Source of the DNA: Eublepharis macularius
Taxonomy: Eukaryota > Chordata > Lepidosauria > Squamata > Eublepharidae
Length of the DNA: 64,000 nucleotides
Reading direction: 5' to 3'
NCBI RefSeq assembly: GCF_028583425.1
Contig: NC_072798.1
Span: forward strand, 8,248,501-8,312,500
The position numbers and the translations under genes were made by a program. Below the pieces are notes generated by a model, which was not told the DNA's origin, ran no database searches, and saw only the letters and a program-made list of their open reading frames with translations. Of this stretch, positions 1 to 61,275 are shown one piece after another (the stretch's first letter is position 1; the number at the start of each line of letters is the position of its first letter).

Positions 1-1856
1 TTATTTATCATGCCCTAGTCTACAGCCAGCAACAAAACAATCATGCATCCACCAATCTGTGGCGTGGCCATGGTACAAAAACATGGCAATAAAGCACGGA
101 TCCTGATTTTTATGTGGCGCCACCCAGAATCTAGCATACAATACCAGATAATGTCCATTGCCACAAATGGAACCAAAACATTCAGCAATCCACCGCTTCA
201 TGGCACTGCCACGGCGCAAAAACATGGGTCAAAAGCACAGATCCTTATGGATCCTCTTGATTTTTATGTGGGGCCACCCAAAATCTACTATACAGGTCCA
301 GATCATATCAATTTCCACAAATGGGACCAACAAATTCAGCTATCCACTGCTTCGTGGCACCGCCACGGCGCAAACACAATTCAGAAGCATGGATCCTCAT
401 GGATTTTCTTGATTTTTACATGGGGCCATCCAAAATCCACCATGCAATCCCAGATCATGTTTATTGCCACAAATGGCACCCAAGAATCAGGCACCCACCA
501 CTTTGTGGCACCGCCACGGGGCAAAAACATGGTTCAAAAGCACAGATCCTCATGGATCCTCTTGATTTTTGCATGGAGTCACCCGAAGTCCACCATACAA
601 TCCCAGACCGTGTCCGTTGCCACAAATGGGAACAAAAAATTCAGCCATCCACTGCTTCGTGGCACCACCGTGGGTCAAAAACATGGTTCAAAAGCAGGGA
701 TCCTCATGGATCATCTTGATTTTTATGTGGGGCCACCCAAAATCTACTATACAGGCCCAGATCATGTCCATTTCCACAAATGGGACCAACAAATTCAGCC
801 ATCCAGTGCTTCGTGGCACCGCCACGGTGCAAAAACTTGGTTCAAAAGCAGGGATCCTCATGGATCCTCTTGTTTTTTATGTGGGGCCACCCAGAATCCA
901 CCATACAATACCAGATCATGTCCATATCCACAAATAGGAACAAAAAATTCAGCCAAACACCTCTTCGTGGCACTGACATGGTGCAAAAACTTCGTTCGAA
1001 AGAACGGATCCTCATGGATCCTCTTGATTTTTACATGAGGCCACCCAAAATCTACTATATAGACGCAGATCATGTCCATTTCCACAAATGGGACCAACAA
1101 ATTCAGCCATCCAGTGCTTCGTGGCATCGCCACGACACAAGAACATGATACAAAAGCACAGATCCTCATGGATCCACCGCTTTGTGGAACCGCCACGGTG
1201 CAAAAATACTGTTCAAAAGCACGGATCCTCATGGATCCTCTTGATATTTACATGAGGCCACCCCAAATCCACCATACAATCCCAGATCATGTCCATTGCC
1301 ACAAAAGGGACAAAAAAATAAGCTATTCACCGCTTCGTGGCACCCACGGCACAAACACATGGTTCAAAAGCACAGTGCCTCATGGATACTCTTGATTTTT
1401 ACGTGGGGCCACCCAAAATCTACTATACAGACCCAGATCATGTCCATTGCCAGAAATGGGAACAAAACATTCAGCCATCCACCGCTTTGTGGCACCCCAC
1501 AGCGCAAAAACATGGTTCAAAAGCACAGATCCTAATGGATCATCCTGATTTTAACATGGGGCCACCCAAAATCCACCATACAATCCTGATTTTAACATGA
1601 GGCCTCCCAAAATCCACCATGCAATCCCAGATCATGTCCATTGCCACAAATGGCACCGAAAAATTCAGCCAGCCACTGCTTTGTTGCATGGCCACGGCGC
1701 AAAACATGATTCAAAAGCATGGATCCTCATGGATCCTGTTGATTATTACATGGGGCCCCCCAAATTCCATCAAAAGTCCAACATCACATCCATTGGCAGA
1801 AATGGCACCAAAAAATCTAGACATTGACTGATTTGTGGCACCGCCACGGCGCAAAA
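1..1856 (+). repeat. Satellite array A, plus-oriented, ~153-bp monomers
   Basis: About twelve diverged head-to-tail copies of a ~153-bp monomer. Each copy carries the landmarks GATCCTCATGGATCCTC, GGGGCCACCCAAAATCCACC, CATTGCCACAAATGG and CTTCGTGGCACCGCCACGG in the same order. Landmark spacing is about 150-155 bp, for example near 546, 700, 855 and 1010. The left edge is a partial 'cap' containing CAGCAACAAAACAATCATG, which also starts the arrays at 16.7 and 20.2 kb. The monomer is close to 51 codons, so long open frames run through it, but several frames on one strand are open at once. I read it as non-coding satellite DNA. The window edge cuts the array. Confidence 0.9.
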
Positions 1857-2204
1857 ACAGAGTGATTTTGTAGGAATTAATTTAATCATGACAATGTTCA
1901 ATCAGGATTTTTTAGGCAGTTTTTTTCAAAATAGTGGTGTCACAGATACTTGGATCTTTGATTGCTATGGTTCAATCTGCGTCCAGGGATGTTTTCTGAG
2001 ACATTAAGAATTTAGGGTGAGTAATGTACAAAAATCCTGAGGATGAGAAGAATCCATAGTTTGGAGTCACAGTGGTGAAAAAATGTAGTGGATCAACAGT
2101 ACACGGTGCATTATTTGGTCATGGATGTCAAAAGTGTGTAATTTCTCTAGTTTAATTTGCAGCAATGGACATAAGGGATTTGATCTTGAGTTTTGGTTGA
2201 CCTC
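1857..2204. other. Spacer between inverted satellite arrays
   Basis: About 350 bp of AT-rich DNA separate the plus-oriented array from the minus-oriented one. Short stretches such as GGATGAGAAGAATCC and CAGTGGTGAAAAAATG faintly resemble the monomer, so this may be a very diverged repeat. No gene signal is seen. Confidence 0.5.
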
Positions 2205-5060
2205 ATGTAAAAAATCAAGAGGATCTGTGATGAGCCGTTGTTTTTAAATGTGTTTTAGCACCGTGGTGGTGCCACGAAGTGCTGAGTGCCTGATTTTTTG
2301 GGTGCCATTTGTGACAACAGACATGATATGGGATTGTATGGTGGACTTTGGGTGGCCCCATGTAAAAACCAAGATAAAACATGAGGATCCGTGCTTTTAA
2401 GCATGTTTTTGCACCGTAGAGGTGCCACGAAGTGGTGTATGGCTGGCTTTTTTGGTTCCAGTTGTGGCACAGGAAACGATCTGGGATTGTATGCTGGATT
2501 TTGGGAGGCCCCACGTAAAAATTAACATGATCCATAAGAATCCGTGCTTTTGAACTAACTTTTTGTGCTGCAGCGGTGCCACAAAGGGGTGGATGGTTGT
2601 ATTTTATGGTACCATTTGTGGCAATGGACATGACCTGAGATTGTATGTTGGATTTTGAGTGGCGCCATGTAAAATTCAAGAGAATCCATGAGGATCTGTA
2701 CTTCTGAACCAAAGCGGGGGATGGCTGGATTTTTTGTTTCCATTGGTGGCATTGGACATGATCTGTGATTGTATGTTGGATTTTGAGTGGCCCCACATAA
2801 AAATCAGGAGGATCCATGTGGATTCATTCTTTTGAACAAAGGTTTTGCACCGTGGCGGGGCCACAAAGCTTTGGATAGCTGGTGTTTTTTGGTGCCATTT
2901 ATGGCAATGGACATGATCTTCGTCTGTATGGGGGATTTTGGGTGGCCCCATGTAAAAATCAAGAGGATCCATGCTTTTGAATCATGTTTTTGTGCTGTGG
3001 CAGTGCCACAAAGCAATCAATGGCTGGATTTATGTGTGCCATTTGTGGCAATGGACGTGATCTGGGATTGTATGGTGGATTTTAGGTGGCCCCATGTAAA
3101 AATCAAGAGGATCCATGCGGATCTGTGCTTTTGAACAAAGGTTTTGCACTGTGGCAGTGCCACAAAGCTCTGGATGGCTTGGTTTTTTGTTCCATTGGTG
3201 GAATTGGACATGATCTGGGATTGTATGTTGGATTTTGGATGGCACATGTAAAAATCAAGAGGATCCATGTGGATCCATGCCTTTGAACAAAGGATTAGCA
3301 CCATGGCGGTGCTACAAAGCAGTGGATACCTTTTTTTTTGTGCCATTTTTGGCAATGGACATGATCTTGACCTGTATGAGGGATTTGGGGTAGCCCCATG
3401 TAAAAATCAAGAGGATCCATGTTTTTGAACTACGTTTTTGTGCCATGGCAGTGACACAAAGCGGTCGATGGCTGGATTTTTTGTCGCCATTTCCTTTGGT
3501 TATGATGTTGGACTGTATGATGGTTTTGGGGAGGACCCATGTAATACTCAACAGGATCCATGAGGATCCGTGCTTTTGAATCATGTTTTGCGCTGTGGTC
3601 GTGCCACAAAGCAGTGGCTGGCTGAATTTTTTGGTCCCATTTGTGGCAATGGACATGATCTGGGATTGTATGCTGGATTTTGGGTGCCCCCTTGTAAAAA
3701 TCAAGAGGATTCATGTGGATCTGTGCTTTTGAATCAAGTATTTGCTCCATGGCGGTGCCACAAAGTGGTGAATGGCGGGAATATTTAGTTCTATTTGTGG
3801 ATATGGGCAGGATCTTGTAATATATGGTGGATTTTGGGTGGCCCCACATAAAAAGCAAGAGGATCCATGAGGATCCATGCTTTTGGACCATGTTTTTGCA
3901 ACGTGGTGGTGTCACGAAGCGGTGGATGGCTGGTTTTTTTGTCCCATATATGGCAATGGACATGATGTGGGATTGTAGGGTGGATTTTGGGTGGCCCCAT
4001 GTAAAAATCTGGAGGATCCAAGAGGAGCTGTGCTTTTGAACCACATTTTTGCGCCTTGGCCATGCCACGAAGCGGTGGATGGGTGAATTTTTTGGTCCCA
4101 TTTGAGCAAACAGACATGGTCTGGGAATGTATGGTGGACTTTGGGTCATCACATGGAAAAATCAAGAGTATCCATAAGGATCCGTGCTTTTGAACCATGT
4201 TTTTGTGCCGTGGCAGTTCCACGAAGCGGTGGATGGCTGAATTTTTTGGTCCTATTTGGGGATATGGACATGATCTGGTATTGTATAGTGGATTCTGGGT
4301 GGCAGCACATAAAAATCAAGAGGATCCAAGAGGATCCGTGCTTTTGGACCATGTTTTTGCGCCGTGGGGGTTCCAAGAAGTGGTGGATGGCTGTTGTTTT
4401 TTTGTCCTATTTGTGGCAATGGACATGATTTGGGATCATGTGGTGGATTTTTGGTGGCCCCATCTAAAAATCTAGAGGACCCATGAGGATCCGTCCTTTT
4501 GAACCGTATTTTGCACCGTGGCAGTTCCACGAAGCGGTGGATGGCTGAAGTTTTTGGTCCTATTTGTGGATATGGACATGATCTGGTATTGTATAGTGGA
4601 TTCTGGGTGGCAGCACATAAAAATCAAGAGGATCCAAGAGGATCCGTGCTTTTGGACCATGTTTTTGCGCCGTGGGGGTTCCAAGAAGTGGTGGATGGCT
4701 GTTATTGTTTTTTTGACCTATTTGTGGCAATGGACATTTTTGGTGGCCCCATCTAAAAATCTAGAGGACCCATGAGGATCCGTCCTTTTGAACCGTATTT
4801 TGCACCGTGGCAGTTCCACGAAGCGGTGGATGGCTGAATTTTTTTCCTATTTGTGGATATGGACATAGTCTGGGATTGTATGGAGTACTTTGGGTGACCC
4901 CATGTAAAAATCCAGAGGATCCATGAGGATCTGTGCTTTATTGGCATGTTTTTGTGCCGTGGCAGCACCACGGATTGATGGATGCATGATTGTTTTGTTG
5001 CTATCTGTAGACTACGACATGATATATGACAGCCTTTTTGTTTTGTTTCAATATAAAAAT
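2205..5060 (-). repeat. Satellite array A', minus-oriented, ~153-bp monomers
   Basis: About 18 copies of the same ~153-bp monomer as array A, reverse-complemented. Landmarks such as CATGTAAAAATCAAGAGGAT and GGTGCCACGAAGCGGTGG recur every ~150 bp. Two ~300-bp segments near 4200-4500 and 4500-4800 are almost identical, which points to recent local duplication. The outer edge (about 4970-5040) carries the cap in reverse orientation (CATGATTGTTTTGTTGCTA, GACAGCCTTTTTGTTTTG). Arrays A and A' together therefore form a head-to-head inverted repeat of about 5 kb. Confidence 0.9.
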
Positions 5061-6337: not shown

Positions 6338-6888
6338 GAGCCAAAACACACGTTAAGAAATACCTAGGTTCAGCACGTGTTCTCTTACCTCAAGGTTTGC
6401 CGGGATCTGTAGGTGTCCTGGAAGCTTAAGTTTAGCATTTACAGAGCAGCAGGGAGGGAAATACAGGCGCCTGTATTTCCCTTCCCCTTCCTGCTGCTCT
6501 GTAAATGCTAAACTTTAAGCTTCCAGGACGCCTACAGATCCCAGCAAACCTTGAGGTAAGAGAACAAGTTTAGCATTTACAGAGCAGCAGGAAGGGGAAG
6601 GGAAATACAGGCGCCTGTATTTCCCTTCCCCTTCCTGCTGCTCTGTAAATGCTAAACTTTAAGCTTCCAGGACACCTACAGATCCCAGCAAACCTTGAGG
6701 TAAGAGAACAAGTTTAGCATTTACAGAGCAGCAGGAAGGGGAAGGGAAATACAGGCGCCTGTATTTCCCTTCCTGCTGCTCTGTAAATGCTAAACTTTAA
6801 GCTTCCAGGACGCCTACAGATCCCGGCAAACCTTGAGGTAAAAGAACACGTGCTGAACCTAGGTATTTCTTAACGTGTGTTTTGGCTC
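6338..6888. repeat. Nested palindromic MITE with triplicated hairpin core
   Basis: A 551-bp fold-back element. The ends are inverted copies (GAGCCAAAACACACGTTAAG at left; complement at right) and are flanked by TAA on both sides (6335-6337 and 6889-6891). A 3-bp TWA duplication is typical of PIF/Harbinger elements. Inside, the self-complementary core GAAATACAGGCGCCTGTATTTC occurs three times, centred at 6468/6469, 6612/6613 and 6756/6757, exactly 144 bp apart. The segments between cores are themselves inverted repeats. The Harbinger assignment is inferred from the target duplication only. Confidence 0.8.
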
Positions 6889-16630: not shown

Positions 16631-19190
16631 AGAATGGTTTTGTGGCATACTAACAAAACAAAAGGCTGTCATATTATATATCATGTCCTAGTCCACAGAC
16701 AGCAACAAAACAATCATGAATCCAACAAATAGCGCTGCTGCCACAGCACAAAAAAGCATGGATCCTCATGGAAGCTTGATTTTTACGTGGGACCACTCAA
16801 AATCCACCATACAATAGCAGATAATGTAGATTGCCACAAATGGAACTAAAAAATTCAGCCATCTACTGCTTCGTGGCACTGCCACGGCGCAAACACATGG
16901 TTCAAAAGCATGAATCCTCCTGGATCCTCTGGATTTTTAAATGGAGCCAGCCAAAATCCACCATACAATCCCAAAACATGTCCATTGCCACAAATGGGAC
17001 AAAAAAATCAGCCATCCACCGTTTCGTGGCACCCCCACAGTGCAAAAAACTGGTTCAAAATCACAGATCCTCATGGATCCCCTCAATTTTTACATAGGGC
17101 CAGCCAAAATCCACTAAACAGTCCCAGATAATGTCCATTGCCACAAATGGCACTAAAAAATTCAGCCATCTACCGCTTCGTGGCCCTGCCACGGCGCAAA
17201 CGCATAGTTCAAAAGCATGAATCCTCATGGATCCTTTGGATTTTTAAATGGAGCCAGCCAAAATCCATCATACAATCCCAAAACATGTCCATAGCCACAA
17301 ATGGGACAAAAAAAAAATCAGCCATCCACTGCTTCGTGGCACCCCCACAGTGCAAAAAATTGGTTCGAAATCACAGATCCTCATGGTTCCTCTCGATTTT
17401 TACATACGGCCTGCCAAAATCCACTAAACAGTCCCAGATAATGTCCATTGCCACAAATGGCACCAAAAAATTCAGCCATCTACCGCTTCGTGGCACCGCC
17501 ACGGCACAAACACATGGTTCAAAAGCATGAATCCTCATGGATCCTCTGGATTTTTAAATGGAGCCAGCCAAAATCCACCATACAATCCCAAAACATGTCC
17601 ATAGCCACAAATGGGACAAAAAAAATCAGCCATCCACAATTTCGTGGCACCCACACAGAGCAAAAATCTGGTTCAAAATCACAGATCCTCATGGATGCTC
17701 TCAATTTTTACACAGGGCCAGCCAAAATCCACTAAACAGACCCAGATAATGTCCATTGCCACAAATGGCACCAAAAAATTCAGCCATCTACCGCTTCGTG
17801 GCACCGCCACGGCGCAAACACATGGTTCAAAAGCATGAATCCTCTGGATTTTTAAATGGAGCCAGCCAAAATCCACCATACAATCCCAAAACATGTCCAT
17901 TGCCACAAATGGGACAAAAAAAATCAGCCCTCCACTGCTTCGTGGCACCCCCACAGTGCAAAAAATTGGTTCGAAATCACAGATCCTCATGGTTCCTCTC
18001 GATTTTTACATACGGCCTGCCAAAATCTACTAAACAGTCCCAGATAATGTCCATTGCCACAAATGGCACCAAAAAATTCAGCCATCTACCGCTTCGTGGC
18101 ACCGCCACGGCACAAACACATGGTTCAAAAGCATGAATCCTCATGGATCCTCTGGATTTTTAAATGGAGCCAGCCAAAATCCACCATACAATCCCAAAAC
18201 ATGTCCATAGCCACAAATGGGACAAAAAAAATCAGCCATCCACAATTTCGTGGCACCCACACAGAGCAAAAAACTGGTTCAAAATCACAGATCCTCATGG
18301 ATGCTCTCAATTTTTACACAGGGCCAGCCAAAATCCACTAAACAGACCCAGATAATGTCCATTGCCACAAATGGCACCAAAAAATTCAGCCATCTACCGC
18401 TTTGTGTCACCGCCACGGCGCAAACACATGGTTCAAAAGCATGAATCCTCTGGATTTTTAAATGGAGCCAGCCAAAATCCACCATACAATCCCAAAACAT
18501 GTCCATTGCCACAAATGGGACAAAAAAATCAGCCCTCCACTGCTTCGTGGCACCCCCACAGTGCAAGAACCTAGTTCAAAATCACAGATCCTCATGGATC
18601 CCCTCAATTTTTACATAGGGCCAGCCAAAATCCACTAAACAGTCCCAGATAATGTCCATTGCCACAAATGGCACCAAAAAATTCAGCCATCTACTGCTTC
18701 GTGGCACCACCACGGCGCAAACACATGGTTCAAAAGCATGAATCCTCATGGATCCTCTGGATTTTTAAATGGGGCCAGCCAAAATCCACCATACAATCCC
18801 AAAACATGTCCATCGCCACGAATGGGACAAAAAAAATCAGCCATCCACTTCTTCGTGGCACCCCCACAGTGCAAAAAATTGGTTCAAAATCACAGATCCT
18901 CATGGATCGTCTTGATTTTTACATAGGGCCACTCAAAATCCACTAAACAGTCCCAGATAATGTCAATTTCCACAAATAGCACTAAAAAAATCAGCCATCT
19001 ACCACTTCGTGGCACCGCCACGGCACAAACACATGGTTCAAAAGCATGAATCCTCATGGATCCTCTGGATTTTTAAATGGAACCAGCCAAAACCCACCAT
19101 ACAATCCCAAAACATGTCCATTGCCACAAATGGGACAAAAAAAATCAGCCATCCACTGCTTCGTGGCACCCCCCACAGTGGAAACAATAA
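16631..19190 (+). repeat. Satellite array B with higher-order structure
   Basis: Same ~153-bp monomer family as 1-5.1 kb. It begins with the cap (AGGCTGTCATATTATATATC, then CAGCAACAAAACAATCATG) at about 16.66-16.72 kb. Monomers alternate between two types. One has AAATGGAGCCAGCC with CATACAATCCCAAAACATG; the other has TACATAGGGCCAGCC with CTAAACAGTCCCAGATAATG. The alternation gives a ~306-bp dimer, seen as repeats of GCATGAATCCTC near 16.91, 17.21, 17.53, 17.83, 18.13, 18.44, 18.73 and 19.04 kb. The array stops abruptly at CACCCCCCACAGTGG. Confidence 0.9.
17448..18659 (+). repeat. 606-bp tetrameric higher-order satellite unit, two copies
   Basis: The segments 17448-18053 and 18054-18659 are almost identical over 606 bp, that is four monomers or two dimers. 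Shared private features include CACAATTTCGTGGCACCCAC and a shortened GCATGAATCCTCTGG in the third monomer. Neighbouring units are clearly less alike, so this is a recent duplication of a four-monomer block. Confidence 0.85.
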
Positions 19191-20085: not shown

Positions 20086-21535
20086 ACAGTTGAAATTTTT
20101 TTTGTTAACAAAATACAGATCCTCATGAATTCATGTGATTATTTTTATATTGAAATAAAACAAAAAGGCTGTCATATTATATCAATTCCTTATCTATAAA
20201 CACCACCTAAACAATCATGTACCCACCAATCTGTGGCACCACCATGGTGCAAAAACAAACTTAAAGAGCACAGATCCTCTTGATTTTTACATAGGGCCAT
20301 ACAAAATCCACTATACAGTCCCAGATCATGTCTATTGCCACAAATGGCACCAAAAAAAACAAGCAACCATGACTTTGTGACACTGCCACAGCACAGAAAC
20401 ATGGTTCAAAATCCCGGATCCTCATGATTTTTACATGGGGCCATCCAAAATCCACATACAAGCTCAGATCATGTCCACTGCCATAAATGGCACCCAAAAA
20501 ACCAGGCAACCATGCTTCGTGGCACCTCTACGGTACAAAAACATGGTGCAAAAGCACGGATCCTCATGGATACTCTTGACTTTTACATGGGGCCATCCAA
20601 AATCCACCATACAATCCCAGATCATGTTTCTTGCCACAAATTGCACCCAAAAATCAGGCACCCACCACTTCGTGGCACTGCTAAATGACAAAAACATGGT
20701 TCATAAGCATGGGTCCTCATGGATCTTCTTGATGTTTATATGAGGCTACCCAAAATCCACCATACAATCCTAGATCAGATCTATCGTCATAAATGGCACC
20801 CAAAAAATCAGGCAACCACGCTTCATGGCACTGCCACGGTATAAAAATATGGTTCCAAAACACGGATCCTCACAGATCCCCTTGATTTTTACATACGGCC
20901 ACACAAAGTCCACTATACAATGCCAGATCATGTCTATTGCCACAAATGGCACCAAAAAAATTAGGCACCCACCACTTCAAAGCACTGCTATGGCACAAAA
21001 ACATGGTTCAAGAACACAGACCCTCATGGATCCTCTTGATTTTTACAAAGAGCCACCCCAAATCCACCATACAATCCAGATTATGTCTATTGCCACAAAT
21101 GGCACCAAGGTAGTCACTGATTCGTAGCACTGCTACAGCACAAAAACATGCTTAAAATCCACAGATCCTCTTGATATTTACAGAGCCACCCAAAATCCAT
21201 CATACAATCCCAGATCATGTCTATTGCCACAAATGGCACCAAAAAAAATCAGGCACCCACCACTTTGTGGCACCGCCACAGCACAAAAGCCTGTTTCAAA
21301 ACCACGGATCCTCATGGATTCTCTTTTATTTTTACATGGGGCCACGCAGAATCCACCATGCAATCCCAGATCATGTCCATTGCCACAAATGGCACCAAAA
21401 CTCAGGCAACCACCATTTCGTGGCACCGTCGCAGCGCAAAAACATGGTTCAAAAGCACGGATTCTCATGGACCCTCTTGATTTTTACCACCCAAAATCCA
21501 CCATACAATCCCAGATAATGTCTATTGCCAAAGTC
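20086..21535 (+). repeat. Satellite array C, ~150-bp monomers
   Basis: About nine diverged monomers of the same family. The left flank (ATCCTCATGAATTCATG, then AACAAAAAGGCTGTCATATT) is the reverse complement of the outer flank of array A' at 5.02-5.09 kb. Monomers carry CACCCACCACTTCGTGGCAC and ATCATGTCTATTGCC and form a subfamily distinct from array B. The array ends at TGTCTATTGCC before AAAGTCAGG. Confidence 0.88.
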
Positions 21536-26037: not shown

Positions 26038-26283
26038 TAGCTGCAGCCTTGTGATTCTGTTTTTGAATACTATTTTATATTTTTAAAACTTCTTGCAAGC
26101 AAAAAAGCAGTGCATCATGGAGAAAGGGGCTATCATGGCACATTCTCTAGCACACTATTTTTTTCTAATTGGAGGGTATCCTTTTTTTAACATGGGAACA
26201 ATAAAAAATGTGACACACATCCCTCTGAAATGTGAAGTAGTACAGTCCACTCTACCTACACAGGATTCTACCACCTCTACTTG

Positions 26284-26490
26284 TATAGACATCGAAAAGA
26301 GTCCAGTAGCACCTTTAAGACTAACCAACTTTATTGGAGCATAAGCTTTCGAGAATCACAGCTCTCTTCGTCAGATGTATCAACTGCCGTTCTCGAAAGC
26401 TTATGCTACAGTACAGTTGTTTAGTCTTAAAGGTGCTACTGGACTCTTTTAGATTTTGCGACTACAGACTAACATGGCTAACTCCTCTGG
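26284..26490. mobile_element. Two PLE terminal pieces, head to head
   Basis: The left part is the minus-strand PLE end (AGTCCAGTAGCACCTTTAAG ... GCATAAGCTTTCGAG). The right part is the plus-strand copy (TTCTCGAAAGCTTATGC ... TTAAAGGTGCTACTGGACTC, then ACTAACATGGCTAAC). The two form a partial inverted repeat. Confidence 0.7.
26339..26378 (-). ncRNA. Hammerhead ribozyme motif
   Basis: Minus strand: ACAU, core CUGACGA, extra A, stem II GAGAGC/GAUUCUC, GAA, palindromic AGCU, U17, then AUGC. Core bases are intact; three of four stem I pairs form. Confidence 0.5.
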
Positions 26491-26739
26491 ATGTATAGAC
26501 ATAGAATTATATATGTACAGGGTGGCTAATAGTCTGGAGGAAAAAATATATTGTCCCTTTAACAGAGCAGCAGGATTGGAGTTCAGTGGCACCTTAGAGA
26601 CCAACATGATTTTCAGTGACTGCCTTCCATAATGCTAGTACTTGGGAGCATCTAATAATGGTAATAGAGGTAGGGTAAGAAAAGAAAGTAGGGTTCCTTC
26701 AGTTTGACTCTTTCAAGTGCAAAATGACAGGCAAAAAAT

Positions 26740-27546: not shown

Positions 27547-28863
27547 TCTATCTATATAACTGAGTAAGCGTGTTTCAGACAACTCACTTTATACCCTGGT
27601 GCACCACCAGAGGGCGCTGCCGCAAAGGAAAGCCCAGGTAACTCACCATATCTCTCCAGAAAACATGTCATGATGGGACGCCCAGGCAGGGAACAGGAGC
27701 TGAGCAGGTGGCAATGCCCTCCCCGCGCTTTAACCCACTTGATATTAGGAGTGGAGCAGGTGGCAATGCCCATCCCCTTCAGCCAGCTGGTATTAGGAGT
27801 GGAGTAGGTGGCAATGCTTGCCCCATGCTTTAACCCAGCTGGTATTAGGAGCGGAGCAGGTGGCAATGCCTACCATTGCCTTAAACAAGCTGGTATTAGG
27901 AGCAGAGCAGGTAGCAATGCCTGCCCCCTGCATTAACCCAGCTGATATTAGGAGCAGAGCAGGGGGCAATACCTGCCCCCCTTCACCCAGCTAGGATCAG
28001 GAGCTGAGCAGATGGCAATGCCCACTCTCTGCCTTAACCCAGCTGTTATTAGGAGCAGGTGGCAATGTCCACCTCACCTTAACCCAGCTGGTATTAGGAG
28101 CGGAGAAGGTGGCAATGCCCACCCCACCTTAACCCAGCTGGTATTAGGAGTGCAGCGGGTGGCAATGCCCATCCCCCACCGTAACACAGTGGATATTAGA
28201 AGCATAACAGGTAGCAATGGCCATCCCCGCCTTAACCCAACTGGTATTAGGAGCAGAGTACGTGGCAATGCCCAGCCCACTTCAGCCACCTGGGATCAGG
28301 AGTGGAGCAGGTGGTAATTCCCACCCCTGCCTTAACCCAGCTCGTATTAAGAGTGAAGCAGGTGGCAATGCCAACCCCCGCCTTATCACAACTGGCATTA
28401 GGAGAGAAGCAGGTGGCAATGCCCATCCCCCACCTTAACCCAGCTATTAAAAGTGGAGGTAGTGCTTGCTCCTCCCTTCACCCAGCAGGAAACAGGTGGC
28501 AATGCCCACCCCCCTTCACCCAGCTGGGATCAGGCTTGGAGCAGGCAGCAATGCCTGCCCCCCTTCACCCAGCCATAATCAGGCACAGAGCAGAAGTCAA
28601 TGCCCATTTTCCTTTCACCCAGCTGGGATCAGGAGTGGAGCAGATGGCAGTGCCTGCCCCCCTTTACCCAGCCTGTATCAGACATGCAGCAGGTAGCAAA
28701 GCCCACCGCCCCTTCATGTTGCTGAGATCAGGTATGGAGCAGGTGGCAATGCCCCCCCCCCACTGGCCAGGGTCAGTGATGGAGGAGGAGGGGATGCCTG
28801 CCTGTCCGCTCTCCCCTTTCTAGAGCCCGTTGTATTTTCCCCCACAACGGGCTCTGTTTCTAG
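27547..28863 (+). mobile_element. Non-autonomous Helitron with internal minisatellite
   Basis: The left end TCTATCTATATAACTGAG follows an A. The right end is CTAG (28860-28863) before a T. A perfect 12-bp stem (AGAGCCCGTTGT at 28822-28833 with ACAACGGGCTCT at 28844-28855, 10-nt loop) stands just before CTAG. TC...hairpin...CTAG inserted between A and T is the Helitron signature. No Rep/helicase frame is present. Choosing 27547 over 27551 for the 5' end is a judgement. Confidence 0.7.
27690..28785 (+). repeat. ~52-bp minisatellite inside the Helitron
   Basis: About 20 diverged copies of a unit like 'CCCAGCTGGTATTAGGAG' + 'GAGCAGGTGGCAATGCCCA' + C-rich linker. The first two thirds use GGTATTAGG; the last third switches to GGGATCAGG with TTCACCCAGCT, so two subfamilies are arranged in blocks. 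Confidence 0.85.
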
Positions 28864-29611: not shown

Positions 29612-29705
29612 AATAGTAGAGTCCAGTAGCACCTTTAAGACTAACCAACTTTATTGCAGCATAAGCTTTCGAGAGCCACAGGTCTCTTCGTCAGATGACG
29701 AACAC
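29612..29705 (-). mobile_element. PLE terminal fragment
   Basis: AGTCCAGTAGCACCTTTAAG, CTAACCAACTTTATTGCAGC and GCATAAGCTTTCGAGAG: a minus-strand PLE end. Confidence 0.7.
29659..29698 (-). ncRNA. Hammerhead ribozyme motif
   Basis: CUGACGA, stem II GAGACC/GGCUCUC with one mismatch, GAA, AGCU, U17. The core is intact, but stem I is only three pairs (CAU/AUG). Confidence 0.45.
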
Positions 29706-36400: not shown

Positions 36401-39400
36401 CTTCCACCCCACTACAGCTGAAAGCCTGACCCTGGTACAGAAGGTACTAGAACACCGTATGTAGCCCTATATCCATTTTGAGGGTCTCCTGAAGACTTCT
36501 ATTCACAATTTTTAAATATATTTTTATTGTATGAGTAGAATTCTTCAGGAAAGCATATTTGGGGGGTATAACTGTTCAATACTGTAATATTTTGAAGATA
36601 ATAAAATTTTTATTTATTAAAGAATATATAATTTATAAATAATTGTTTTAATAGAAGAGACAATTTGTTTCACTTCAATAAAGAAGCAGTTAATTATCTT
36701 ATTAATAGAGATTATACAAGAGAATCGATTAATTGTAATTTATGTGAGGGTCTGCCTTATATTGATGGGCCCCTAGTGCCTGCGGGGCCCCTGGGCTTCA
36801 GCCTTATGAATAATACGGCCCTGGGCTCCAAACAAGACAAAGCTTTTCCTTTTCCATGTGAGAATCCCCACAGGTCTCAGCTTGTAGAATTACACAGAAA
36901 CCGTCTTTCTGTTCAGTTGTCATGTTTTTTAGAGTTAAGAAAGCTGAAATACCAGGATTCCTGATAGGCTAGGAAGCAGAAACAAGGCATATTTTGAGAC
37001 AACAGACAACATACACACAGAGTGACTGTTCCACATATACATCTCATCTCACCAAGGCTGTGTGCTCCCTTCTGGATTTTCCTGTTAGATCCCATCAATG
37101 AAATCCTAATCAGCTCTCCTGGACTACATGCTACAAATAGCCTAATACAAATGGTCACTCAGCCTACAATAGGGTTGCTATGTCCAGACTGGGAAATTTC
37201 TGGAGATTTTGGAGGTGGAGCCTGAAGAAGGCAGGGTTTGGGAAGGGAAGAGGCCTGAGTGGGGTATAATGCCATAGAGTCCACCCTTCAGAGCAGCCAT
37301 TTTCTCCAGGGGAACTGGTCTCTGTTGCCTGGAGATCAGTTGTAATTCCGGGAGATCTCCAGCTACCACCTGGAGGCTGGTAACCCTGGCCTACAGTTAT
37401 CACAAGGTGTGAGCGTATCACCTGAATGGTTTAAGGGTTTGGGTTTCTTTCCCTCCTCCACACCTTCTTTCTCCAACCTAGCAGCAGGTTGTGGCTTTTG
37501 CAGCTACGCTGTACTCGAAATAATTAACCACACACCTTAACCGCAGATTAGAAAACGAAAGAATTGCAAGATGTAAAAGTGCTCAGTGAGCAATGTCCCG
37601 TACAACTCAGACACGCTTCTGTTAAGACTTCAAACGTTTCTTTCAAGCAGGCGGTATATGGAAATCTCCTTTTGTCTGGTTCTTGAAACTCACTACCTTT
37701 TTATACTCAGCATTCCCTTCCCCCTAGCTCCAAAAACCACAGCCAACATGAGGGGCAACTGAATTAAATGACTCAGAAAAGGTTCTCAGAACAGAGCGCA
37801 AAAAAAAAAAAGTTTATACTCTTCAATCTTGTTGCATAACTTTGGAGGTCGAGGCGAATATAGCATGCCTCTTCTGTCTCCCTGAAGTTACATACCATGG
37901 ATTGGAACCTCTTTACAATTGTTTGAGGGACAGATTTGGGGTTATTCTGTATGGCCGCTTCAATGTGTGACAGCCTAAGGTAAAGGCCTAACTTTTCTGT
38001 CTGACTTTGTACAATGTCCTGTTTAGACTTTGCACTAACCTGTGGAAGCCAGTCACCTGTTCCTAGTTTGTACCAGTTTTGTCCAGTCCTTCCTCCCAAC
38101 AAAGCTCCCAGAAGAGTAGGTGGGTCCCCTTCCTCACTTTATCCTCACAACACTCCTGCGAAGTAGGTCAGGAAGAGTGAGAATGTGTCTGGCCCAAGGT
38201 CACAAAGCAAACTTTGTGGCAGGTTTGAATTGGTTTCTCCCATATCCTAGCCCAACACTCTAACCACAATGCCACACTGGCCTTTGTTATTGACGAGTTA
38301 AAGAAGCTTTGAGGGCATTTTAAAGAAGCCACTGAGCCCATAAATGGTGACATGGGCTTTACCAAATTCATATTTAAATCAGGCCCCAGAGCCTGGTTTA
38401 TATGAGCAAGACAACAAGGTGGCAGGATGCACTGTGCCCCTACGTACCTGTAAGCAGAGGAGAACATTTGGGAATGCTTCCCTATGTTACAAGCTCCCTA
38501 TACATAGAAAACCAGCACAGCAAGCAAGGAGAGGGGAAGAGCTTTTCTTCCTGCCATGATAGTTTTCATTTGCTTGGAGTTTTTTAAGCGCCTTTCTTTA
38601 AGTCCAGAGGTGTTAGCTGTGTTAATTTGCAATTGCAAAATAGCAGAGTCCAGTAGCACCTTGAAGACTAACCAACTTTATTGTAGCATAAGCTTTCGAG
38701 AGCCTCAGCTCTCTTCATCAGATGCAAATTTATTGTCACATAAGCTTTCGAGAACCACAGCTCTCTTCGTCAGATGCAACTTTATTGTAGCATAAGCTTT
38801 CGAAAGCCACAGCTCTCTTTGTCTGATGCAACTTTATTGTAGCATAAGCTTTCGAGAACCACAGCTCTCTTTTTCAGATACAACTTTATTGTAGCATAAG
38901 ATTTCGAGAACCACAGCTTTCTTCATCAGATGCATCTGACGAAGACAGCTGTGGTTCTCCAAAAGCTTATGCTACAATAAAGTTGGTTAGTCTTAAAGGT
39001 GCTACTGGACTCTTTATTATTTGATATCTTTAAGTGCCTCATTCATCGGTTTCTTCATTTTTATCCTTCTTCCAAGGAACTCAGGGCAGCAAATATGGCT
39101 CCTTCACCCCTATTTTATCCCCACATCAAGGCAGGTCCAGCTGAGAGGTCCAGCGGGAGAGTGATCCACCACCCGTCGGAGGCCCAATCTGGGCCATTTT
39201 GGCCCCAATCCAGGCTGAAAAGGGCCTAAAATGGCCGAGAGTCAGGTGGGCGGGGCCACCTGACATGTGACCTCTTTGGGAAACTGCTGGAACTGCGTTC
39301 CTGCGCGTTCCCCCTCAAAATGAGCCCTGCACATGCTGAAAATTACTCTTCTTGTTCCAAAATAGAAAAGAGCCCAGTAGCACCTTTAAGACTAACCAAC

Positions 39401-42400
39401 TTTACTATAGCATAAGCTTTCGAGAATCACAGCTCTCTTCATCAGATGCATGACTTCTTCTTGTTCCGTTTCTGATGTTCTACTTGCATACCTCTTTTTT
39501 ACTTCATTAGACAAATGTCCACCTCCTCCCACTGTTGAATTTGCTAAATCCTTTGCGAAGTCATATAAGGTGGGCACGATAGTGAAGTATGAATGCGTAG
39601 AAGGGTACAAGAGAAAAAGCGGGGAGGCCAGAAACATTCAGTGCCGCTTAAATGAGAAGGGTTTCGCCCAGTGGACCACTGCAGCATGCACAGGTAAGGA
39701 ATTGCATTTCAAAGTACATCTTGGTATTCCGTCCACCCCTTTGGAGTCAACTGGCAGGATTGTTACAGATTACTTTTGGGTGCCAAAGAGAGGTCCCCTC
39801 CATTGTGGCCACCTCCCTCCCTCCTAATTGTAGCTTTTTTCAACCCCAGTTTTGGCCAGCTTCCCTTCCCAGTGTTACTACCCCACAGGGGTCATTTTGT
39901 AGAAAAAGAGCTGGAGGAACTCATTAGTATAACTCATTAGCATAACTCATTAGCATATGCCATGCCCCTTGCCATCACCGGAAGTGTGTCATTAGTATAA
40001 CTGATTTGCATATGTTTGGGACCCAATCCTGGCCATTCAGGGCCAAAATTGGGCCCAAAATGGTCAGGATCGGGACACTGCTGAGTGGGAGAGTGATCCA
40101 TCACCCATCAGAAGCCCAATCCAGGCCGTTTCGGCCCCAACCCAAGTCGAAACGGGTCCAAAATGGCCGAGAGTCAGGTGGGCGGGGCCACCTGACATGT
40201 GACCTCTTTGGGGAACTGCCGGAACTGTGTTCCTGCACTTCCCCCCTCAGAATGAGCCTTGCTATCCCCCTTTCCCACCCTCGCCAAGTGTGATTTCACT
40301 GGAGGGAATAGAATTTGACTTCTGAGAGGAAGTCTGAGTGTGAGAGATTAATCTATCTAATTCAGGCAAGCTGCGTGGAAAGGCCTGAATGAATCTAAGA
40401 GCGGAACTACACGTGATGAATGACACAGGTTGGACACTTGTCAGCTTCCCTCAAGTTTTGATGGGAAATGTAGGCATCCTGGTCTTGCAGCTTGGCTCTC
40501 CGACTGCTGTCCAATGGACTTTTCAACTGTCACTTGTCCAACATTCCGCCAAGCTGCCTACATTTCCCATCAAAACTGGAGGGAAGCTGACAAGTGTCCA
40601 ACCTGTGCCTTTTGTCACTTGTAGTTCCGTTCTAAGTCTGTGTGGAATTTATTCTCTTAAAGAAGACCTGTGTGGAAAATTACTTTGTGTGAAGGAGCCT
40701 ATGAAAAAAACTTGAAGATCAGATAACTATCTTTGAAACCACCAGGCTTAAGAAATAGTGTGAAACCAATACACTTCATGTACTAATAAGGGGGAGGGGG
40801 TGGTTGTTCACCCCAGAGTATATGGGATTTCTATATATCCCAGTCTTATCCTCAGGGCCACATAGTCCCTTGATGGAGCCTAATGCTTGGGAACATTATT
40901 CAGGAAAAAATTAAATTAACTAGTTTGGAATTGAATTCCTGGTGCCAGCATTACCTACCCAGAGGGTGAAATAACAAGAAAGTGTAAGGAATCCATGCTG
41001 GTGTGCCTAAAATATTTGTTTAGATCACCTTCCTTTGCTTTTTTCTTTAAAAGGTAGCTTACAAAGTTAAACCATACAAATTAAAATCTCGTCTTAAGAG
41101 CCATTATAACCAACACATAAGCAAATGATTCAAACAATTAAAATCAAAATTTAAAGAGAGCCAGTTTAGTGTCGTGGCCCACAGTCACCGAGCCAGCAGA
41201 GTGGGGAATTGAACCTGGGCCGTTTCCAGACGGCCCCCCGCCTCGCGAAACGTCGCGCGTCGTCGCGCGTCGTTGCGCAGAAAACGCGAAATATCGCGTT
41301 TTCTCGCGCGAGTTTTGCGCGACGTCGCGCAAAACTCGCGCGAGAAAACGCGATATTTCGCGTTTTCTGCGCAACGACGCGCGACGACGCGCAACGTTTC
41401 GCGAGGCGGGGGGCCGTCTGGAAACGGCCCTGGTTCTCCCAGATCCTAATTCAACACACTATTCCCATATCCACCCATTCTTGTGTAAAGGAAAGAGAAA
41501 ACACAGTATGTGGGCGAGGGAAGTTAAACCCTAGCCCTTCTCATACTTAGTGCCCTGCGCTCCACTGCTTCAGGCTTTTTCCTTCCAGCCCAACTTATTT
41601 ATGGAATCAGAGTTATGTTAAGAGAAATTCTTAATGAAAGATAGGGAAGGGAAAGTAGGATTTCAGTCCTCTCATCCATATACTCCATTATCTGAAAAGG
41701 AAAAAAAACAACCCAAAACCACCCTGCCTGTTTTACAAATGAACAATCTTGGTGTCCTATTTCAAAGTTGTAGCTTTCTCTCTGTCCTTCCACCAAATTT
41801 CAGGTATTGTATTCAAAAGGAACGATTCCCCAATCAAGCAATCTCTTTCATTGAGGAAAGTTAGTTCCCAGCAACTAGCAAGTAATCACCTTGACCAAAG
41901 ATGGTCTATCAGGGGCTGAATTAATACCTATTCTGGCACCCTGGCAGCAAAGCTAAGTAGCCCTATCAGCCAGGACTCTGCATATCTTATTTTGTGATTC
42001 CACAATCACATCAAGCAAGCATTCAGTTGTCATTGGTAATAACCGGCGATAGTACTGTCTTCCAAAAGAGCCATCACCACATCCAGTGGCAGTGAGTTCC
42101 ACAAGTCAACTACCCATTGTGTGATGTACTCCTGATACCTCTAATGGACTTGTGTGTTAGCTTAGGAAACAGGGCTGACACTCAAATAGGGTTGCCAGCT
42201 CCAAGTTGGGAAATTCCCGGAGATCTGGGGCGTGAAACCTGGAGAAGGTGGGGTTTGGGAAGCGAAAGGACCTTGGCATGGCATAGTTCCATAGAGTCCA
42301 CCCCAAAAGTAGCCATTTTCTCCAGGTGAACTGATTTCTGTGGCCTGGAGACCAGTTGTAATTCCAGGAGATCTCCAGCCGCTACCTGGAGGCTGGCAAC

Positions 42401-54376: not shown

Positions 54377-54592
54377 AGGATTGCTGACTCCATGTTGGAA
54401 AATTCCTGGAAATTTGGGGGTGGAACCTGGAAAGGGCAGAGTTTAGAGAGGGACCTAAGAAAGGTATAATGCCATAAACTCTACCCTCCAAAGCCACGAT
54501 TTTCTCCAGGGTAATGATCTCTCTCTTTCTTCTGTAGATTCGTTGTAAGTCTGGGAAAACACCGGGCTCCACCTGGAGGTTTGCAACCCTGC
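54377..54592. repeat. GGTTGCCA-type MITE, diverged
   Basis: GGATTGCTGACTCCATGTTG to CACCTGGAGGTTTGCAACCC. Confidence 0.65.
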
Positions 54593-54605
54593 AGAATTCA
54601 ATAGT

Positions 54606-54835
54606 AAAGAGTCCAGTAGCACTTTTAAAACCAACCAATTTTATTTGAGGATAAGCTTTCGAGAACCACAGTTCTCTTCATCATATGAGCCACAGTTCTC
54701 TTCGTGCATCTGACAAAGAGAACTGTGGTTCTCGAAAGCTTATGCTACAATAAAGTTGGTTAGTCTTAAAGGTGCTACTGGAATCTTTACTATTTTGCAA
54801 CTACAGACTAACACGGCTAGCTCCTCTGGATCTGC
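54606..54835. mobile_element. Inverted pair of PLE terminal pieces
   Basis: Left minus-strand piece (AGTCCAGTAGCACTTTTAAA ... GATAAGCTTTCGAGAACC) and right plus-strand piece (GAGAACTGTGGTTCTCGAAA ... AAAGGTGCTACTGGAATC, then ACTAACACGGCTAGC). Both hammerhead cores are altered here. Confidence 0.7.
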
Positions 54836-55735
54836 AGAATTCAGTAAATTTGTGAGGTACAGCCTGCAAGATATTGTGGGCATTGAGAAATCTACCCTTG
54901 GAATAGCTGCCTATGCAGTCCTTATCACAACTTTTTATTTCTTTTGGTTGAATTATGAAGTCGTTTTTTTAAAAAAATGGGTAGGCCTTCAAGTCTGTAT
55001 ATCACACTGCCTTGTCAAGGGTTAGCCCTGTTGAATAGCTTTGGTAGTCTAGCAAGTGGCCAGCCAGTTATTGTTAGATATAGCAATAGTTTGAGTTTTT
55101 GTACCCTAGAAAACCAAAAGGACCGTTGGTTCCTATCGGAACAATGCTGCCAGCTATGCTCTACTGCAGAGAGCTTGCTCTCTAGGCCGCCACCTTCAGA
55201 ACAAGGAAGCGAATAATTACTAAGGACAAGGCCTTTTCTAGGGCAGCCCCTTGACGTTGAAACTCCCACAGCTGTTCACCTGGTACCTGCAAATGTATTG
55301 AATGCAGGTGAATATGTTTGTCTACTTTCAGGCTTTTATCATTATTAATGTAGTTATTGTTCACTGGTTTGTGGAAGTGGGGTTCTTGACATGCACACAC
55401 TTTTTTCTGTACAGTTCTATGTTGTGGCATGATTTATAAAGTATAAGATATGCTGATTTTCTTGTGTGTTCCTAATTTTAAGTGCATTTTGAAACTGATA
55501 ATTCTTGCTGTCAACAGAAGCCGTGCAACAGATAGGAGTGTTATGAGGACTATGAATCATTTAAATAAGTAAAGTTAATATTTTGATGTCTCCTTTGAGA
55601 CCCTTTAGGGTCAGAAAAGGCTCTGTGTGTACTCTTCAAAGCCTTCCCACCCTTTCCTCCGAGCGTACTGAAGACCAGTTGAAAAGGAAATGGTTCTAGT
55701 CCCTCTTCTCTACCTCTCCTTTGCGGCTCCAAAGA
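54836..55735. other. Unassigned intergenic DNA
   Basis: Short open frames only. No exon or repeat family recognised with confidence. Confidence 0.4.
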
Positions 55736-60669: not shown

Positions 60670-61030
60670 TGAGGGAGCTGCTGTAGCATATTGGTTAATT
60701 GGTTGGATTGCAATACAGCATTCTGCTGGTTCGAATTCCACTACTGCCATGAGCTCAGCAGGTGGACTTGGGTAAGTGGTTGGGCTGTAAATCAGGACTC
60801 TGCTAGTTCAAATCCCACTACTGTCATGAGCTCAGCAGGTGGCCTTGGGTAAGTGGTTGGGTTACAAATCAGCAATCTGCTGGTCCGACTCCCACTACTG
60901 CCATGAGCTTAGCAGGTGGCCTTGAGTAAGTGGTTGGGATGCCAATCAGCACTCTGCTAGTTCAACTCCCACTACTGCCATGAGCTTAGCAGGTGGCCTT
61001 GGGTAAGTGGTTCGGTTACAAATCAGCAAT
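60670..61030 (+). repeat. Tandem array of a 77-bp tRNA-SINE head
   Basis: Units start near 60770, 60847, 60924 and 61001, 77 bp apart, each with GTAAGTGGTTGGG, TTC[A/G]A[C/A]TCCCACTACTGCC and CAGCAGGTGGCCTTGGGTAA. Each keeps a B-box-like GxTTCxAxTCC. The first unit has the full SINE start (GAGGGAGCTGCTGTAGCATA). Confidence 0.85.
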
Positions 61031-61275
61031 CTTCTGGTTTGAGCGGCAGGACTCTAATCTGGACAACTGGGTTTGATTCGCCACTCATCCACTTGAAGCC
61101 AACTGGATGACCTTGGGTCAGTCACAGCTCTCTCAGAGCACTCTCAGCCCCACCCACCTCACAGGGTGATTGTCGTGAGGATAATAATAACACACTATGT
61201 AAATCGCTCTGAGTATGGCATTAAGTTGTCCTGAAGGGCGGTATATAAATGGAATGTTGTTGTTGTTATTAAACT
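61031..61275 (+). mobile_element. Sauria-type SINE
   Basis: GGACTCTAATCTGGACAACTG, GGGTTTGATTCGCCACTCAT, CCTTGGGTCAGTCACAGCTC, AAGGGCGGTATATAAATGG and TTG repeats. Its 5' edge runs directly on from the 77-bp array. Confidence 0.85.

Follow-up and report, generated by a model that had tools for sequence, protein, structure and literature searches.

Between positions 38595 and 39035 of the window (the whole 64-kb stretch of DNA analysed here), five tandem 52-bp units with a hammerhead ribozyme motif stand head to head with a sixth, inverted unit. We consider it very probable that this structure is a decayed twin insertion of the 3' end of a Penelope-like element (PLE), in one arm of which a 52-bp stretch multiplied, most likely in DNA, with the ribozyme as cargo and not as engine. 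A striking "ribozyme multimer" can thus arise without need of ribozyme activity: a tail present in tens of thousands of copies would have become a minisatellite near chromosome ends, in which dead and live ribozymes were both expanded.

Anatomy of the twin insertion

The 52-bp period given in the original prediction was confirmed both by TRF, which reports 5.0 copies with 89% matches and 0% indels at 38673-38934, and by alignment, in which five minus-strand units run from 38933 down to 38674 and all five predicted landmark positions fit units 38674-38725 to 38882-38933. The predicted sixth unit is likewise present in inverted orientation on the plus strand, occupying 38932-39022 together with its tail. 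The array arm runs out into a tail reaching about 38604, and the composite of both arms is bounded by a 9-bp direct repeat (38595-38603 and 39027-39035), as listed here:

38595-38603, no strand: left target-site duplication TCTTTAAGT, a 9-bp exact match that is the longest string shared by the flanks
38604-38673, minus strand: PLE tail of the array arm (GGTTAGTCTTCAAGGTGCTACTGGACTC..., the longer tail form)
38674-38725, minus strand: 52-bp hammerhead unit, intact core, perfect stem II
38726-38777, minus strand: 52-bp hammerhead unit, intact core, one stem I pair weakened to G-U (AUGU)
38778-38829, minus strand: 52-bp unit, broken core (U4 to A, G8 to A), reading CAGACAA for CUGANGA
38830-38881, minus strand: 52-bp unit, broken core (G8 to A), reading CTGAAAA for CUGANGA
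38882-38933, minus strand: 52-bp unit, core kept, AGCU changed to AUCU, one stem II mismatch
38932-38984, plus strand: inverted head-to-head partner unit, core broken at G12, sharing 2 bp (GC) with the array arm at the palindrome GATGCATC
38985-39026, plus strand: PLE tail of the inverted arm, aligned to 39022, its last bases reaching the target duplication
39027-39035, no strand: right target-site duplication TCTTTAAGT

Array and inverted arm together make up a single insertion: the arms stand head to head in inverted orientation, their tails point outward and one 9-bp duplication of the target, TCTTTAAGT, encloses both, as in twin-type PLE tail insertions. Six further copies of the motif with its tail, one of them truncated within the motif, lie in the window:

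26293-26491, both strands: head-to-head motif and tail pair, its plus-strand arm cut short inside the motif, flanked by direct repeat TGTATAGACAT (26282-26292, 26492-26502)
29618-29698, minus strand: single motif and tail copy whose core is intact and which shows no target duplication on visual inspection
39359-39455, minus strand: single motif and tail insertion whose core is intact, between 12-bp direct repeats (39347-39358, 39456-39467)
54601-54831, both strands: head-to-head motif and tail pair, direct repeat CTGCAGAATTCA at 54589-54600 and 54832-54843

Array loci for comparison were drawn from exact 52-bp junctions among the matches listed on contigs C1 and C2, with locus L009 and the window added; fetched loci over one place were merged into one, and listed C3 array loci were left out. 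In 34 of the 38 loci examined the blast rule gave two or more units (35 arrays, units annotated by blastn); L084, L090, L093 and L094 were not arrays. L001-L008 and L010-L044 stand outside the array counts, L013 and L014 being used for the flank test alone. Core counts refer to 178 units, 10 of 188 having been excluded for more than nine differences or incomplete length.

Arrays terminate in a tail in 28 of 35 cases, with no tail detected in the other seven, and 22 of the 35 have a head-to-head partner, which is a single unit in all 22; no inverted partner was detected in 13. Flanking direct repeats of at least 8 bp enclose 14 of 26 head-to-head composites, as against 8.6% of 650 mismatched flank pairs (binomial 4e-9), and are absent from 12; 19 of the 26 hold an array arm, and 11 of these 19 have the flanking repeat. 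Tailed at both ends and enclosed by a single target duplication, such twins are traces in the genome compatible with priming on both strands of the target. A mechanism barring arrays in both arms was considered and dropped, since so few tails belong to arrays that 0 of 22 is expected by chance.

State and fold of the hammerhead motif

The predicted hammerhead layout is correct, stem III being possible only through the AGCU palindrome between copies, and the units at 38674-38725 and 38726-38777 do keep every core base, as had been claimed. The statement that each unit holds the full layout went too far: CUGANGA is absent in two of five and the AGCU palindrome is gone in a third. Measured against the minimal type I hammerhead core associated with PLEs, two of the five units are thus complete, one has lost AGCU and two are broken. 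All five carry an extra A between A9 and G10.1; a viroid hammerhead has a similar extra base. The pattern CTGANGAN{8,25}GAAAGCTTATG matched five times in the 64-kb window, two of these inside the array, and never in 100 dinucleotide-preserving shuffles.

The only two intact units of the array are mutually adjacent and could in principle pair as one double hammerhead in a minus-strand transcript. Energy folding of the two gives a competing long hairpin, a kissing stem III being beyond the program's model. The 128-nt motif plus tail folds into stems I and II plus a tail hairpin, its stability being unexceptional (z -1.47; matched by 16 of 200 shuffles). Scored with Rfam covariance models, the window has no hammerhead that reaches the gathering threshold, nor does 38500-39100 have one at E<=10; the same search found none at E<=10 in a sister array with 8 of 13 units intact, and the absence therefore says nothing on ribozyme identity. 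Sub-gathering Rfam matches of miRNA type in 38500-39100 come from the inverted repeat.

Origin, location and growth of the arrays

A Penelope-like origin, as originally suggested, is supported by locus L011, where a frame with reverse transcriptase and GIY-YIG domains (RVT_1 1.6e-11, GIY-YIG 1.1e-4) lies upstream of a close variant of the motif, one base shorter than that of the array and followed by the same tail. No PLE frame was detected in the 64-kb window, and PLE-frame homology among the fetched junction loci amounts to a single 43-aa fragment (L093), their flanks of at most 1.5 kb being such as would miss distant frames.

Other tandem copies, whose presence in the genome had been put forward as a check, are there: the 52-bp junction with up to one mismatch has at least 3,712 matches in the 2.24-Gb genome (control 0). 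The single-tail junction has at least 47,970 (control 0) and the intact motif 37,656 (control 1); an exact search of viral contigs gave no match. From 3,712 junctions, about 4.4 per sampled array, and 47,970 tails we estimate that about 2% of tails belong to arrays and that tandem arrays number several hundred. Their spacing classes range from 38 to 58 bp, and the longest sampled array has 28 units (L082).

Arrays also differ from single copies in where they lie. Among the matches listed on C1 and C2, 35 of 37 loci with the exact 52-bp junction are less than 26 Mb from a contig end; for the single tails sampled the figure is 3 of 10 (Fisher 6e-5), a comparison in which the cut-off was set after positions were known, the single copies are ten and contig ends stand for chromosome ends. 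L084 is the one junction locus in the middle of C2 and not an array by the blast rule; the contig that holds the window is 108.6 Mb long, with the window 8.25 Mb from its end. That 52-bp junctions cluster near contig ends while most sampled single copies lie elsewhere points to DNA recombination.

The course of events that we propose would start with insertion of a short 3' end of a Penelope-like retrotransposon, consisting of a minimal type I hammerhead plus the PLE tail. Most likely both strands of the target were cut by the element's protein and served to prime reverse transcription, leaving a head-to-head twin in which both arms begin at hammerhead stem I, the tails point outward and one 9-bp target duplication encloses the whole. 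In one arm the 52 bp from stem I to just short of the tail would then have grown to five copies, most likely in DNA, where slippage or unequal exchange would have acted as they do in subtelomeric minisatellites, the first duplication probably occurring via the short match GTTG (AAAGTTG/GTTAGTC versus GGTTG/CATCTGA). Many loci show this identical 52-bp junction, a recurrence that fits duplication in place only if microhomology directs it.

The longer arrays, too, speak for growth in DNA. Variants are shared among units beyond a star null in 8 of 13 arrays with at least five units (P<0.01, pair-weighted statistic, which L061 and L070 enter one unit short under the exclusion rule given above), the window's array and L075 being among the five that miss this level. 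A cruder statistic, the count of shared variants, gave P<0.01 in 2 of the 13 (P=0.89 for L082) and was replaced because it is insensitive for long arrays. Higher-order patterns occur in L009, L080 and L082. All seven units of L075 have C for A6, a position at which its partner arm is intact, and a 23-mer haplotype of this array has three occurrences in the genome, all within it. The L009 haplotype has four, three in the array and one as a single copy on C7, and was therefore not wholly born in the array. As a class, then, these arrays answer to the description of subtelomeric minisatellites derived from a transposable element, and the window's array presumably grew the way its class does; taken alone, its location fits and its variant sharing shows no excess (P=0.29, pair-weighted).

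The unit differences in the window are mostly private, so this array could also have been made at insertion. Reverse transcriptase arriving at the RNA end (GUUGCAUC) would re-anneal on GUUG, within that RNA or a second one, and repeat, laying down several 52-nt units at once; the part of later DNA exchange would be limited to reshuffling some of the arrays. The identical recurrent junction with its possible 4-nt match, the flanking repeats around 11 of 19 array-bearing composites and the several spacing classes are all compatible with such an origin. We nevertheless hold it to be unlikely, given a core change found in all seven L075 units and absent from the partner arm, with a haplotype found nowhere else, the higher-order patterns and the bias of 52-bp junctions to contig ends. 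It concerns the first duplication and is compatible with DNA growth of the class.

The recurrence of one junction could also mean that the source PLE already had tandem hammerheads in its terminal repeat, which insertions then inherited with varying copy number. This account, too, concerns the first duplication, and tandem minimal hammerheads of PLEs are reported in the parts of PMC7761336 and PMC7229834 on which we draw. We think it quite improbable, in view of the locus-private L075 haplotype and of PLE-frame homology confined, within the short flanks fetched, to the L093 fragment. The single-unit partner arms in 22 of 22 twins also speak against it, weakly, because only an estimated 2% of tails belong to arrays.

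The original prediction had favoured a self-cleaving satellite or retrozyme arrangement, in which the ribozyme amplifies itself. Multimers would self-cut to 52-nt monomers, circularise and be reverse-transcribed as multimers, as metazoan retrozymes do at about 150-400 nt according to the relevant parts of PMC7229834 and PMC7761336, and tandem hammerheads with a dimer-type stem III, including two adjacent intact units in the window, are what such a route calls for. However, the array lies within one PLE insertion with tail and target duplication, and in 28 of 35 arrays there is still a PLE tail outside the repeats, a part that a 52-nt circle does not have. Some sister arrays have dead cores, one of them (L075) in every unit, and the variant sharing in 8 of 13, the nearly or wholly private haplotypes and the contig-end bias likewise leave self-amplification unsupported. 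Moreover, an Anolis PLE can insert in vitro without its hammerhead, which shows no activity unless protein is present (PMC11167929). We regard this route as very improbable.

Core decay bears on selection as well. The majority consensus is dead in 9 of 14 arrays with at least four analysed units, in one of which (L083) the cleavage-site base is the sole failure; some of these consensuses may have arisen by repeated CpG decay after growth. The core is intact in 64 of 178 array units, as compared with 17 of 38 single units. Were multi-hammerhead arrays maintained because cleavage is useful to host or element, the slightly lower divergence at non-CpG core positions than at others (3.2% versus 5.3% in arrays) would be in keeping with it; yet single units show a similar difference (3.5% versus 6.6%), of the 178 array units 114 have lost an intact core, and 29% of the array cells at G8 and G12, the CpG positions of the core, deviate. 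We find such maintenance hardly credible; the lower divergence may be a mark of selection that once acted on the ribozyme in source elements.

Under growth in DNA, there is still a slim chance that some arrays with several intact neighbours give rise to transcripts that cut themselves into circularising RNAs of 52 nt (or 47 nt), as a by-product of subtelomeric DNA expansion. If so, these would be the smallest natural hammerhead circles. The arrays are in any case natural templates for dimer-cleavage tests.

Relation to known systems

Minimal type I hammerheads of Penelope-like elements were reportedly described by Cervera and de la Pena in 2014 and by Lunse et al. in 2017. The units studied here resemble them in CUGANGA, stem II, GAA, an almost absent stem III and PLE association; they differ in their 52-bp spacing inside 5'-truncated tail insertions, in reaching up to 28 units, in their many broken cores and in the extra A after A9. 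Neither tandem PLE hammerheads nor subtelomeric minisatellites derived from tails are new to the literature. As far as the part of PMC7761336 used here goes, the former occur in tandem and as possible dimers, with thousands per animal genome.

Poseidon PAc of Anolis carolinensis, for which cutting and extension of both target strands were shown in vitro, is comparable as an element with reverse transcriptase, GIY-YIG and a hammerhead, in which an internal start of reverse transcription gives a "tail" (PMC11167929). The PAc hammerhead overlaps the ORF start, whereas here the frame from the hammerhead ATG, read by eye in the window, hits a stop where the tail begins, and the window is without a PLE frame. 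Head-to-head Penelope insertions of Adineta vaga, as presented in the portion of PMC3846280 cited, share the inverted terminal repeats, the palindromic inverted junction and an optional tail, and have target duplications of 8-10 bp; the arms here are far shorter (about 80-130 bp for single-unit arms) and without an ORF.

Type I hammerheads in tandem, with dimer cleavage, also characterise metazoan non-LTR retrozymes and newt satellite DNA in the cited parts of PMC7229834 and PMC6155905. Those repeats are about 150-400 bp, with canonical loop contacts and demonstrated circRNA; the present ones, known from DNA, have a 52-bp unit with a 4-nt loop II and a 4-bp stem I, unlike a canonical retrozyme hammerhead, and a PLE tail. 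A closer parallel in the mode of growth is a subtelomeric minisatellite of Xenopus that derives from a 52-bp part of the SINE/tRNA-V 3' tail and is attributed to recombination in the sections of PMC10794172 consulted. There, too, a piece of a retroelement tail stands in tandem, with expansion in subtelomeres only; the element is a different one, a hammerhead goes unmentioned in those sections, and the likeness drawn here is one of description.

The twin insertion and its relation to a Penelope-like element

An array of period 52 lies in the window at 38673-38934 (5.0 copies, 89% matches, no indels; TRF). Its last unit runs into the 3' stretch of the Penelope-like element (PLE) that we call the tail, not into a further unit, and motif and tail together also occur elsewhere in the window.

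Hammerhead motif and tail in the window
38933 to 38674, minus strand: five 52-bp units
last unit to about 38604, minus strand: tail of the array arm, GGTTAGTCTT(A/C)AAGGTGCTACTGGACTC
38932-39026, plus strand: inverted sixth unit and the tail that belongs to it, facing the array head to head
26 kb: motif plus tail in two arms, one of them cut short inside the motif; head-to-head pair, tails outward
29.6 kb: motif plus tail, single copy
39.4 kb: motif plus tail, single copy with a 12-bp direct repeat
54.6 kb: motif plus tail, two arms; head-to-head pair, tails outward

Units begin on the minus strand with GCATCTGA in three of five cases, with GTATCTGA in one and with GCATCAGA in one, and the array arm meets the inverted arm at GATGCATC. 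Read as a hammerhead, the unit offers stem I (GCAU/AUGC), the core CUGANGA to which one A is added, stem II (GAGAGC/GUUCUC or GCUCUC, 4-nt loop), GAA and the palindrome AGCU, with the predicted cut after U and before AUGC; its positions follow the customary hammerhead numbering. Two array units are intact (38674-38725 and 38726-38777), one keeps its core with AUCU in place of AGCU, two have broken cores, and in the inverted unit the core fails at G12. The motif matches five times in the window, twice inside the array, versus never in 100 shuffles, and is thus not a chance expectation.

Direct repeats of 9-12 bp flank the copies at 26 kb (TGTATAGACAT), 38 kb (TCTTTAAGT) and 54 kb (CTGCAGAATTCA); none was seen by eye around the 29.6-kb single copy. 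Across 26 head-to-head composites (23 from sampled genomic loci, the window array, and pairs L013 and L014), a flanking string of at least 8 bp was common to both sides in 14, versus 8.6% of 650 mismatched left-right pairs (binomial, 4e-9); 19 of the 26 include an array arm, and 11 of those carry the repeat. Given this excess, both arms of such composites were most likely inserted together. At the window locus the insertion was a twin one.

In the 54-kb pair, the minus-strand arm holds a partial extra hammerhead stretch at 54660-54710 (GAAGAGAACTGTGG twice), possibly a first step of array growth. A near-identical head-to-head junction, GATGCAACCGTCAGGTTGCATC or variants, recurs at different places in 6 of 35 array contexts, upstream of the arrays at loci L047, L049, L066, L079, L089 and L091; it may have been copied as such or be the product of a fold-back step.

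The window repeat is a Penelope-like element. At three loci (L010, L011 and L012) inverted arms, composed of the same tail and a motif variant with loop II one base shorter, flank a long reading frame, which is interrupted in L010 and which in L011, the one frame searched against Pfam, encodes a reverse transcriptase (1.6e-11) and a GIY-YIG domain (1.1e-4). The three proteins are about 99% identical over most of their length, and the loci, probably one duplicated stretch, were counted as a single case. This 3-kb copy with its inverted arms lies nearly unchanged at several sites of contig C1, about 0.3-1.8 Mb apart, probably within a larger duplicated stretch. No frame joining the two domains was found in the window, and the sampled junction loci, taken with at most about 1.5 kb of flanking sequence, yielded only a 43-aa fragment (L093). 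Published PLE anatomy agrees with this: in Adineta vaga the arms lie head to head, with palindromic junctions, an optional tail and target duplications of 8-10 bp (PMC3846280), and in Anolis PAc both strands are cut and extended, with reverse transcription starting internally and thereby creating the tail (PMC11167929).

The window also holds other repeats: large blocks of satellite DNA in both orientations, whose unit measures about 154 bp and has a 308-bp higher-order form (104-4939, 16752-19184 and 20416-21530), a 144-bp unit repeated three times with an internal palindrome (6428-6848), and GC-rich tandem arrays whose periods lie close to 50, 100 and 203 bp (27695-28761; all TRF). A 77-bp tandem repeat of 4.5 copies at 60691-61039 looks by eye like the half of a tRNA gene that contains the B box; ARAGORN found no tRNA genes in the window.

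Arrays across the genome

The assembly searched comprises 2.24 Gb in 72 contigs, the window starting at C9:8,248,501 of 108.6 Mb; its pattern counts are possibly minima. Matches to the intact motif, CTGANGAN{8,25}GAAAGCTTATG, number at least 37,656 (control 1); with up to one mismatch allowed, there are at least 47,970 junctions of unit with tail and at least 3,712 52-bp junctions of unit with unit (control 0 for both). A tandem pattern requiring the core matched at least 1,758 times (control 0), with periods of about 47, 50-51 and 52 bp, and others, among the matches listed. Since sampled arrays average about 4.4 junctions (153 spacings, 35 arrays), the 3,712 junctions suggest several hundred 52-bp arrays, as an estimate only.

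Among 38 loci examined, 34 hold 35 arrays of at least two units, the longest with 28 (L082). Units are spaced by 52 bp in 130 of 153 cases; of the 24 arrays that have at least three units, 8 combine 52 with 38, 41, 48-50, 58, 69 or 84. The tail terminates 28 of the 35 arrays, and a head-to-head partner, invariably a single unit, accompanies 22. Variant units recur as blocks in several long arrays. When unit pairs sharing a non-CpG variant were weighted, independent change was rejected at P<0.01 in 8 of 13 arrays of at least five units; an earlier, cruder statistic had given 2 of 13. For the window array it was not rejected by the pair-weighted test (P=0.29).

Position was assessed from exact 52-bp junctions on contigs C1 and C2, for which the search, reaching into C3, should be complete. 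Of these loci, 35 of 37 are no farther than 26 Mb from the end of a contig, versus about 8 expected if uniform, and versus 3 of 10 single tails (Fisher, 6e-5). The single tails form a small sample (85 in the genome selected by flanking tetranucleotide, 10 on C1 and C2); the 26-Mb limit was set after the positions had been seen, and contig ends stand in for chromosome ends.

Ribozyme cores and the proposed course of array growth

The ribozyme is not needed for array growth. Among array units 64 of 178 have an intact core, and among single units 17 of 38; the majority consensus is dead in 9 of 14 arrays with at least four analysed units. Because some of these consensuses may reflect recurrent CpG decay, and that of L083 fails at the cleavage-site base only, the strong case is L075, in which all seven units carry A6 to C while the partner arm has an intact core. 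Its 23-mer haplotype has three exact matches in the genome, all within the L075 array; most simply, the unit was dead before multiplying and multiplied in place. The L009 haplotype has four, three in one array and the fourth a single copy on C7, and was therefore not wholly born in the array. Non-CpG divergence is slightly lower at core positions than at others, in arrays (51/1,602 versus 236/4,450) and similarly in single units (12/342 versus 63/950); this is not special to arrays and may be an echo of source elements. In Anolis PAc, the hammerhead is inactive without protein, and its mutation leaves insertion unaffected (PMC11167929).

We propose that priming of PLE RNA on both target strands would leave its 3' end inserted as a twin, that one arm would then acquire a tandem duplication, and that slippage or unequal exchange would subsequently alter copy number, an order we hold to be highly probable. 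Dead-unit arrays, locus-private haplotypes and the position effect were observed for arrays as a class; for the window's own array, we infer growth by the same course. The duplication join may be guided by GTTG microhomology, a role inferred from its presence just ahead of the tail (AAAGTTG|GTTAGTC) as well as at longer 5' ends in several loci (GGTTG|CATCTGA). Template jumping during insertion, which is unlikely, and inheritance from a tandem source, which is more doubtful still, both bear on the first duplication only and are compatible with the proposed order.

Comparison with known systems

Minimal PLE hammerheads are reportedly the subject of Cervera 2014 and Lunse 2017. Such hammerheads, their tandem occurrence and possible dimer cleavage are already described in two publications (PMC7761336, PMC7229834). 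Short PLE-hammerhead minisatellites at chromosome ends are not described in the titles and abstract openings of the papers listed. In pattern, the gecko arrays resemble a minisatellite of Xenopus, in which 52 bp of a SINE tail have expanded only in subtelomeres, with recombination held responsible (PMC10794172): in both, a piece of a retroelement tail has expanded near the ends. Their common unit length of 52 bp is probably a coincidence.
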